Source: Oscillospiraceae bacterium
GTDB lineage: Bacteria; Bacillota_A; Clostridia; Oscillospirales; Oscillospiraceae
DNA length: 64,000 nt
Reading direction: 5' to 3'
Assembly: GCA_015067895.1 (NCBI GenBank)
Contig: SVLP01000011.1
Coordinates: forward strand, 1 to 64,000
The notes under the pieces were generated by a model. That model was not told the DNA's origin and did not search any database. It worked only from the letters and a program-made list of their open reading frames with translations. Position numbers and translations under genes: made by a program. Below, piece by piece: positions 6,482-62,452 of this stretch. The stretch's first letter is position 1; every line of letters starts with the position of its first letter.

Positions 6482-6793
6482 GAAAAAAGGGCTGTAAAGA
6501 AACGCATAGGTATCCAAACAACATACAGCAGCAGTGACACACAATCAAGCGGGACACTGCTGCTGTTTTCTATGTTGGATCAATCGGATCAGGTGACCAC
6601 ATCCATGTCATCGCGAGCCCGTAAGGGCGCGGCGATCTCCTGGTACGATGTGCAGATTTGTGACGCAGTACCAGGAGATTGCCGCGTCGCCTGTCGGCTC
6701 CTCGCAATGACAGCGGTAGACGGCAGATGGTTCTTCTGATTGACTCATGTATAACTCGAATCATTATTCAGGTTTCTTTACAGCCCCTTTTTC
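6482..6793. repeat. About 310-bp composite element with inverted ends
   Basis: The left end (GGGCTGTAAAGAAAC, about 6488-6502) and right end (GTTTCTTTACAGCCCC, 6772-6787) are inverted copies, each flanked by A- or T-rich sequence. Inside are a hairpin (CAGCAGCAGTG / CACTGCTGCTG, about 6520-6561) and a TCATCGCGAG...CTCGCAATGAC element (about 6607-6712) with inner words ATCTCCTGGTAC / GTACCAGGAGAT. The hairpin plus TCATCGCGAG part is the inverted counterpart of the composite at 2347-2530. No open frame of note is inside. The right end abuts the stop codon of the next gene at 6794. Confidence 0.75.
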
Positions 6794-7072
6794 TTATTTC
6801 CCGCCACGGAAGCGGGCGATGGTGTTGAGGGTCACCGTTCCGATGGCCAGGGTGAATGCCGCCAGGGTGACGGCGCGGATGGTGTCCAGGATGCCGCTGG
6901 CATCCCCGATCTGAGCCCGGTGGGTCAGCTCCACGAGCTGGAGCACCAGCGCCAGAATGCAGCAGGCGAAGCTTGCCAGGGACACCCGCCCTCTGCGGAG
7001 GGCGTTGATGCCGAAGCCCCAGGCCGCCAGGCCGATCAGCAGACTGCTGACATTGAGGAATGGGAGAATCAC
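6794..7072 (-). CDS. Small membrane protein, unknown function
   Basis: A 92-residue hydrophobic protein with about three transmembrane segments (FLNVSSLLIGLAAWGFGINAL, ASFACCILALVLQLVEL, TIRAVTLAAFTLAIGTVTLN) and a basic tail. GTG at 7072 is preferred: AGGAGGTG precedes it and it overlaps the stop of the upstream gene by 4 bases (GTGA), the signature of translational coupling. An alternative TTG at 7096 lies within the upstream gene and has no ribosome site. It belongs to a minus-strand operon of membrane proteins and lipoproteins. I do not recognise a family. Confidence 0.7.
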   Translation of the reverse strand: MILPFLNVSSLLIGLAAWGFGINALRRGRVSLASFACCILALVLQLVELTHRAQIGDASGILDTIRAVTLAAFTLAIGTVTLNTIARFRGGK

Positions 7073-61581: not shown

Positions 61582-61614
61582 GCCCCGTCTGCAAAAGCAG
61601 GCGGGGCATTTTTT
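61582..61614 (+). terminator. Terminator of the sigma factor operon
   Basis: GCCCCGTCTGC / GCAGGCGGGGC (one G-T wobble, AAAA loop) followed by ATTTTTTG. Between here and 61728 I see nothing besides AT-rich sequence. Confidence 0.9.
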
Positions 61615-61728
61615 GTAGTGTTGCATACTTCTGCGCAACTTAGGTGTTGCTTTTACATAATGATGAAAAAGTGGATAAAAGTGGTAACAAGTTGTGGAAA
61701 ATGGAGATTGATTTGGGAATACTGACAA

Positions 61729-61757
61729 TTTACATTTGGGAGCGATCTGGATATAAT
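61729..61757 (+). promoter_or_regulatory. Promoter of the type III toxin-antitoxin locus
   Basis: TTTACA at 61729-61734, 17-base spacer, TATAAT at 61752-61757. Transcription should begin near 61764, where a small hairpin GCGGA-GAAA-TCCGC starts the RNA. Confidence 0.8.
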
Positions 61758-61763
61758 AATAGT

Positions 61764-61960
61764 GCGGAGAAATCCGCGTATGATTGAGAATTAGGCTCCT
61801 GCCTCCATCCTCGTCATGCCCCTCATTAGACTCGTAGGGCGCGAGTCTTCCGCCGAATAAAGAATGCCCGCTGAGTTGATCTTCCCGTAGAGCGCGGGAA
61901 GGGTAAAATAAAAAATGCTCACCGAGAAGACGGCCTGCGTTCCCAGGCCGTTTTCTTTTT
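61764..61960 (+). ncRNA. Repeat RNA antitoxin, TenpI-like (type III TA)
   Basis: About 200 bases with tandem repeats of 48-51 bases. Repeat 1 starts ATGCCC at 61816, repeat 2 ATGCCC at 61864, and a partial third ATGCTC at 61915. Each full repeat has a hairpin with different stem but the same loop: GACTCG-TAGGGCG-CGAGTC (61829-61847) and CTTCCCG-TAGAGCG-CGGGAAG (61881-61901), followed by an AATAAA-rich linker. The partial repeat runs into a rho-independent terminator, ACGGCCTG / CAGGCCGT (61930-61951) with TTTCTTTTT. A degenerate repeat may precede them (61780-61815). Promoter, RNA repeats, terminator, then toxin gene is the layout of type III systems, where the toxin cuts this RNA into inhibitory units and the terminator sets the RNA to mRNA ratio. 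Confidence 0.78.
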
Positions 61961-61978
61961 GAAACGAGGTGTCGAATT

Positions 61979-62407
61979 TTGCTGAAACTGGTATTTCTGA
62001 CAAAGGCTTTCTATGACCGATATAAGCATTGCCCGGAAATCGAGCAGAAGGAAACCAGACCCTATGCTCGAATTGAAGTAGAGCTGAACGGTGTCACATG
62101 GGCAATTCCACTGCGCTCTCATATCAAACACAGCCACGCGATATGGACGGATAAAGAGAACGGATGCGGAATTGACTTGTCCAAGGCTGTTGTAATCGAG
62201 AAGCCTGAGAAATACATATCCAGCGAACAGCCCTATATTCGGGACAATGAATTTCGAGTTCTGAAGCGGATCGACGAATACCGTGTGGCCAAACGACTGC
62301 AGGGATATATCGACGAATACAAGAAAGCAAAGCAGAATCAGAATGTCTCCCGGAACCGTACACTGGTAAAGTATTCGACGCTGCAATATTTTGAGAAATA
62401 CCTATAA
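61979..62407 (+). CDS. Type III toxin-antitoxin toxin, TenpN/ToxN-AbiQ-like endoribonuclease
   Basis: A 142-residue protein: FLTKAFYDRYKHCPEIEQKETRPYARIEVELNGVTWAIPLRSHIKHSHAIWTD, then CGIDLSKAVVIEKPEKYI and a C-terminal KYSTLQYFEKYL. The RPY...WAIPLRSHIKH core, the LSKAVVI strand and the YSTLQYF tail are those I associate with the TenpN branch of the ToxN/AbiQ endoribonucleases. The start is TTG at 61979, 7 bases after GAGGTG. It lies 19 bp after a terminator that ends a tandem-repeat RNA, which independently supports a type III system. The gene is more AT-rich than its surroundings, consistent with transfer. Expected role: phage abortive infection or plasmid/locus maintenance. Confidence 0.83.
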   Translation: MLKLVFLTKAFYDRYKHCPEIEQKETRPYARIEVELNGVTWAIPLRSHIKHSHAIWTDKENGCGIDLSKAVVIEKPEKYISSEQPYIRDNEFRVLKRIDEYRVAKRLQGYIDEYKKAKQNQNVSRNRTLVKYSTLQYFEKYL

Positions 62408-62414
62408 CAACTGA

Positions 62415-62449
62415 TCCCTCCCGGAGTTCAAAACTCCGGGAGGGATTTT
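62415..62449. terminator. Terminator between the toxin and phosphomutase genes
   Basis: TCCCTCCCGGAGTT / AACTCCGGGAGGGA is a perfect 14-bp stem with a CAA loop followed by TTTTA; it serves both convergent genes. Confidence 0.9.
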
Positions 62450-62452
62450 ACG

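Follow-up and report, generated by a model that had tools for sequence, protein, structure and literature searches.

The 64,000-nucleotide (nt) stretch analysed here (the window; positions 1 to 64,000 of contig SVLP01000011.1 from an Oscillospiraceae bacterium) carries at 61729-62407 an RNA built of tandem repeat units, followed directly by the gene of a small toxin-like protein. The locus is a further member of the known TenpIN family and very probably constitutes a chromosomal type III toxin-antitoxin system in which pseudoknots of the Rfam 6A class (RF02925) act as the antitoxin, TenpI, of the toxin TenpN. Gene order, toxin family, fold, the pseudoknot (by covariation) and the linkage between 6A RNA and TenpN were computed here; RNA processing, inhibition, nuclease activity and phage defence are proposed by analogy with ToxIN and CptIN. 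A preliminary description, made from the letters of the DNA, had proposed a TenpIN-type locus with a promoter, about two and a half hairpin repeats of differing stems, a terminator in the last partial repeat and an open reading frame (ORF) of 142 residues behind the RNA. All of these are found in the following layout, where S1 and S2 are the two stems of a unit:

61729-61757, + strand: sigma-70-type promoter TTTACA-17-TATAAT, 11 of 12 consensus positions (promoter consensus scan)
61764-61777, + strand: small hairpin GCGGA-GAAA-TCCGC at the predicted 5′ end of the transcript (RNA fold; also in the homologous loci L001, L014 and L015)
61825-61875, + strand: TenpI unit 1, S1 61828-61834/61842-61848, S2 61837-61840 (GGGC) with 61866-61869 (GCCC)
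61877-61927, + strand: TenpI unit 2, the Rfam 6A RNA, S1 61881-61887/61895-61901, S2 61890-61893 (GAGC) with 61917-61920 (GCTC)
61927-61960, + strand: partial third repeat and rho-independent terminator between antitoxin and toxin (fold, -16.5 kcal/mol)
61966-61971, + strand: ribosome binding site GAGGTG upstream of the TTG start (read from the sequence)
61979-62407, + strand: tenpN, 142-aa toxin of the TenpIN family with TTG start (NF047358, 1.2e-39; predicted fold; 128 homologues)
62414-62446, strand unassigned (the scan lists the - strand): terminator 3′ of tenpN, facing a convergent ORF (hairpin, -29.9 kcal/mol)

The two complete units have hairpins at 61828-61848 (loop TAGGGCG) and 61881-61901 (loop TAGAGCG), which start 53 nt apart. 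The repeat is mainly structural, because the units are identical at only 31 of 56 positions, 2 of 2000 shuffles score equally well and a plain repeat finder run on the window did not pick them up. What they share is a plan, in which each loop complements its own 3′ end (GGGC/GCCC in unit 1, GAGC/GCUC in unit 2) and, in unit 2, an A-rich loop L2 lies between S1 and the 3′ strand of S2. Unit 2 matches the 6A model from end to end (56.5 bits, gathering threshold 41.2), and unit 1 follows the same S1/S2 plan. The suggestion that the repeat might define a new antitoxin subtype had to be given up because of this match to an existing family, which is common to other TenpN loci. Folding the RNA, as had been proposed as a check, gives -76 kcal/mol for the whole region (z -5.0; 0 of 200 shuffles as good). 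The terminator hairpin, which begins at the partial third repeat and carries a U tract, appears in the fold as well and is absent from the output of the consensus scan of the window.

Covariation over homologous loci indicates that the 6A unit is an H-type pseudoknot with a short L1 and an A-rich L2. S1 is mostly 6-8 base pairs (bp) long, L1 has two bases (usually UA), and S2, which links the hairpin loop to the 3′ end, has 4 bp; L2 runs along S1, is mostly 13-17 nt long and is 65% A across 35 hand-split units from 17 TenpN loci. In these units S2 pairs in 140 of 140 cells with nine pair types, namely GAGC/GCUC (19 units), GGGC/GCCC (5), GAAC/GUUC (3), UAGC/GCUA (2), GUAU/AUAC (2), and GGGC/GCUC, GAGU/ACUC, UGGG/UCCA and UAGU/ACUA once each. 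The maximum in 10000 permutations was 128 of 140 cells, a comparison that overstates significance because the units are related, so that counting independent S2 changes gives a better measure. The hand-split set leaves out L002 and L034 (for their expanded L2 and an upstream region of only 84 nt, respectively). Since splitting by hand favours pairing, control tests were added with 32 units (the 35 minus three letter-for-letter copies of another unit in their own locus, in the split region). In 30 of the 32, the 24 nt downstream include a 4-nt Watson-Crick complement of the loop (shuffled mean 3.1, maximum 9), and in an automatic alignment the structure reaches 96.1% pairing, compared with 26.7-44.7% when it is slid. 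In L002 (2661-3000), two 6A-like hairpins with GAGC/GCTC have an L2 expanded to ~52-64 nt and fall below the 6A threshold.

The protein itself, checked against toxin profiles as the preliminary description had advised, matches the NCBIfam TenpIN model NF047358 over its full length (135.7 bits, cut-off 90, model positions 1-141 of 141). When the predicted structure is compared with known ones, type III toxins come out on top, and the protein is assigned the type III toxin fold. Identity to ToxN/AbiQ structures (PDB 4ato, 2xd0, 7d8o, 4glk) in structural alignment is 12-15%. A sequence match in the PDB to a designed repeat protein (4.8e-4) was rejected as spurious; no stretch of it passes on its own.

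The same arrangement recurs elsewhere, in genome samples that are all centred on one bacterial group. Among 295 genomes of the order, two carry 6A RNA above its threshold; the class sample gives 5 of 391 and the phylum sample 2 of 398. These are six distinct genomes (G001, G081, G335, G367, G485, G653), and in all six the RNA lies on the same strand as a TenpN match and at most 100 nt before it. A further sub-threshold 6A match in G1000 (32.4 bits) was taken as chance; it lies inside an ORF that by eye reads like an ATPase. Starting from the toxin, TenpN exceeds its cut-off in 6 of 295 (order) and 12 of 391 genomes (class), which, with G001 in both, gives 17 loci; weaker matches (2 in the order scan, 7 in the class scan) were left out of the counts, and of these L011, L038 and L043 show repeats by eye, whereas the others gave no clear picture or no anchor. 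One or more repeat units and a hairpin stand upstream of the toxin in 16 of the 17 as judged by eye, with a single unit in L030, no clear U tract at the hairpin of L008 and weak U tracts in L033 and L037; in L034, with its short upstream sequence, just the end of one unit is visible. The outcomes named beforehand as speaking against the assignment, a protein without similarity to the profiles or homologues without upstream RNA and terminator, thus did not occur, given that the TenpN profile was passed and that 16 of 17 loci show unit and hairpin.

6A-type units also occur without the toxin in viruses. Five pattern scans of viral contigs, in which only rows with a hairpin of 5 bp or more were kept, yielded at least 18 viral records that carry such units with no TenpN nearby (L065, L073, L080, L081, L100, L104, L113, L119, L130, L184, L206, L267, L269, L274, L276, L308, L346 and L392). 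Merging the look-alike pairs L065/L100, L073/L113, L130/L206, L267/L274 and L346/L392 leaves at least 13 distinct loci; L346 ends at its unit, at the contig end, and is uninformative alone although counted among the 18, and L392 is its longer twin. RF02925 is over threshold in 17 of the 18. In at least 12 viral records of the scans a TenpN match does stand behind the units, and the three viral contigs picked up by a stricter first pattern all carry TenpN, orphans surfacing only once the patterns were loosened. Nine other loci (L134, L156, L161, L194, L197, L227, L238, L330, L381), whose S1 reaches 5 bp or more and which lack TenpN, were removed before the count as chance matches by eye, their L2 not being A-rich. 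L092 belongs to neither group: its 6A-type units precede only a short TenpN-like fragment, on which the whole-record search is silent.

The TenpIN hidden Markov model (HMM), run over whole orphan records, matched 0 of 18, records that may be fragments of viruses, against 14 of 15 control viral records, the single miss being the record of L092. TenpN may lie elsewhere in these viruses; in TenpIN loci the toxin directly follows the units. PF13958 was likewise matched in 0 of 18 orphan records, a weak result since the controls also gave no match. Of 20 orphan units, one could not be anchored; the other 19 share 72-98% identity with a TenpN-linked unit, two of these values being too low because they were measured out of register. 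Most flanks score close to what random sequence gives (mean 0.53, maximum 0.68), and those above that level (L080, L119, L276) contain a neighbouring unit. For 50 nt the unit of L206 and L130 equals unit 2 of the TenpN-linked L019, and the sequences part at the boundary of the unit. Adjacent units lying outside what the patterns required keep both S1 and S2 whole in five of five cases, one of them with a new S2 pair type, AAGC/GCUU. Searched with blastn against named phages, orphan units gave either no match or short weak ones (best E 0.3, among the matches listed), which does not show absence, because blastn can hardly, if at all, detect a diverged RNA of 52 nt.

The surroundings of the orphans are varied. 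PHROGs profiles, applied to 20 of 76 listed ORFs in loci other than L119, L184 and L392, identified a terminase in L113, L081 and weakly L267, an integrase directly 3′ of the units of L080, a tail fibre in L065, an endolysin by L104, an exonuclease by L276, an HNH endonuclease in L130 and a ribonucleotide reductase in L269; the proteins of L073 and L308 fall into families without a known function, and that of L206 matched nothing. ARAGORN found transfer RNAs (tRNAs) in 5 of 18 loci (L081, L184, L267, L274, L276), near the units in L081, L184 and L276, and ROOL, skipping-rope, drum and FuFi-1 RNAs occur in L184, L267, L206 and L080 among the 13 of 18 loci scanned. In L267, two orphan 6A units at 6792-6893 precede by ~35 nt a skipping-rope RNA (RF02924, 6928-7013), which may be a related phage RNA. 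From 4913 in L269, just before the 6A unit, stands a unit of another class whose loop AGCCGA complements a downstream UCGGCU; by its pairing, this phage would carry two different antitoxin-like pseudoknots.

Several results weigh against a TenpIN system with 6A antitoxin. Foldseek alone returned no PDB entry for the predicted structure below E 0.001, Pfam gave no family for the protein at E up to 1 (ToxN/AbiQ PF13958 included), and PADLOC had no match for the locus. The 6A threshold is passed in 10 of 17 sources, so that 6A is one class of TenpI and other TenpN loci use other RNAs; genomes were scanned for 6A under stricter filters, at the cost of weak matches. S2 is paired at 91.3% of cells in the automatic alignment, where MAFFT on inspection misplaces a few rows, and S1 has mismatches in two hand-split units. 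The 6A model does not pick up unit 1 at E up to 1, a result that, with the modest identity of the two units and the TTG start, could be read as the mark of a decayed and inactive TenpIN relic. We regard this as very unlikely: the ORF spans the whole toxin model, both pseudoknots are intact, with S2 strands that differ between the units yet match within each, and the two-unit arrangement recurs in L001, L014 and L015. The RNA also sits between promoter and gene and ends in a terminator, as structured leaders do, and it might be a cis-acting leader or attenuator of the downstream gene rather than an antitoxin that binds TenpN. That seems extremely improbable to us, since tandem pseudoknot-type units before a toxin of the TenpN family agree with the type III criteria set out in the available portion of PMC5086642, and a leader would not predict toxin-free units that persist in phages.

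Those toxin-free units can themselves be read in two ways. 6A RNA may have an unrelated phage function and have been captured by TenpIN loci, as the number of viral records in which TenpN went undetected would allow, along with the orphans near tRNAs or sharing a locus with other phage RNAs; this is unlikely, in that every sampled bacterial genome with 6A has it linked to TenpN and one orphan agrees letter for letter with a TenpN-linked unit for 50 nt. We lean slightly towards the orphans being natural decoy antitoxins that would neutralise host TenpN during infection, a reading favoured because the pseudo-ToxI of phage PhiTE (PMC3475682, in part) is a precedent for phage RNA mimicry, likewise resembling a type III antitoxin without toxin. 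According to the same partial text, wild-type PhiTE has 1.5 repeats whose phasing gives no full unit, so that expansion is needed, whereas the orphans consist of one or two 6A units, each a complete pseudoknot.

At least two further repeat classes, also pseudoknot-like, occur at other TenpN loci. The second (GACGAGTGACGGTTCTGACTCGTC...TTGACCGAG), in which S2 CGGTT pairs with RACCG, precedes TenpN in L004, L005, L027, L028, L029 and L030, and the third (GGTGTGAGGGTAACACC...ATCCC), with GGG/CCC and GGA/TCC variants, in L006, L007, L033 and L035. Tandem repeats and terminator-like hairpins, seen by eye before ORFs with a sub-cut-off TenpIN match in L011, L038 and L043, are possible distant type III systems. 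Of 27 TenpI leaders, 16 have a 5′ hairpin whose stem is 5 bp or longer (shuffled mean 10.3, maximum 15); small 5′ hairpins are seen in the window (61764-61777), L001, L004, L014-L018, L020, L021, L028-L032 and L037. The G+C content of the element (61600-62450) is 45-50% against ~56-69% around it (400-base windows), which suggests acquisition from elsewhere. Upstream lie what we take to be a sigma-factor-like ORF and its small partner, the latter with no above-cut-off match in Pfam or NCBIfam, and downstream is a convergent ORF, presumably phosphomutase-like.

The likeness to TenpIN of Photorhabdus luminescens, as far as the partial account of that system goes, rests on the toxin family (curated HMM), the gene order and units of ~50 nt repeated about twice. 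CptIN of Eubacterium rectale (PDB 4rmo) has a toxin of another family, and the pseudoknot of CptI described in the portion of PMC5086642 at hand is close to the 6A unit in its short L1 and A-rich L2. ToxI units, in the material available on them, are 34-36 nt long against ~52 nt here. In excerpts of PMC8040213, other candidate RNAs upstream of ToxN are proposed as ToxI, a similar line of reasoning for a different family. The Rfam entry for 6A gives a hairpin only in its structure line, with no pseudoknot, and lists the function as just 'Gene; sRNA'.

By analogy with these systems, one promoter would transcribe the two ~52-nt units, and a leaky terminator would let a minority of transcripts reach tenpN, so that antitoxin RNA would exceed toxin. 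TenpN, a putative endoribonuclease of the MazF/ToxN fold, would cut the precursor at the unit junctions and be held inactive in an RNA-protein complex; if fresh antitoxin were lost, for instance on phage shut-off of host transcription, TenpN would be freed to cut RNA. The scheme fits the type III logic given in the part of PMC5086642 consulted (RNA excess, terminator leak for the toxin, processing by the toxin, RNA-protein cages).

Open-licence full-text literature yielded neither 6A as TenpI antitoxin nor its pseudoknot nor orphan phage 6A units, and nothing on 6A, RF02925, skipping-rope or drum; the papers defining 6A and TenpIN are outside that scope, and the link may be known. The 6A RNA was reportedly defined by Weinberg in 2017 and TenpIN by Blower in 2012.

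With the present locus, a likely function and a missing pseudoknot are assigned to the uncharacterised Rfam family 6A, and a testable structure is supplied for TenpI, in a system for which neither sequence nor structure comparison turned up a TenpN structure in the PDB. The complete, toxin-free antitoxin units in phages are candidates for RNA counter-defence. If they do act as decoys, RNA-based counter-defence against TenpIN would be recurrent, with some units sited near tRNAs or other phage RNAs, and the 6A family would gain a function in both its bacterial and its phage settings.
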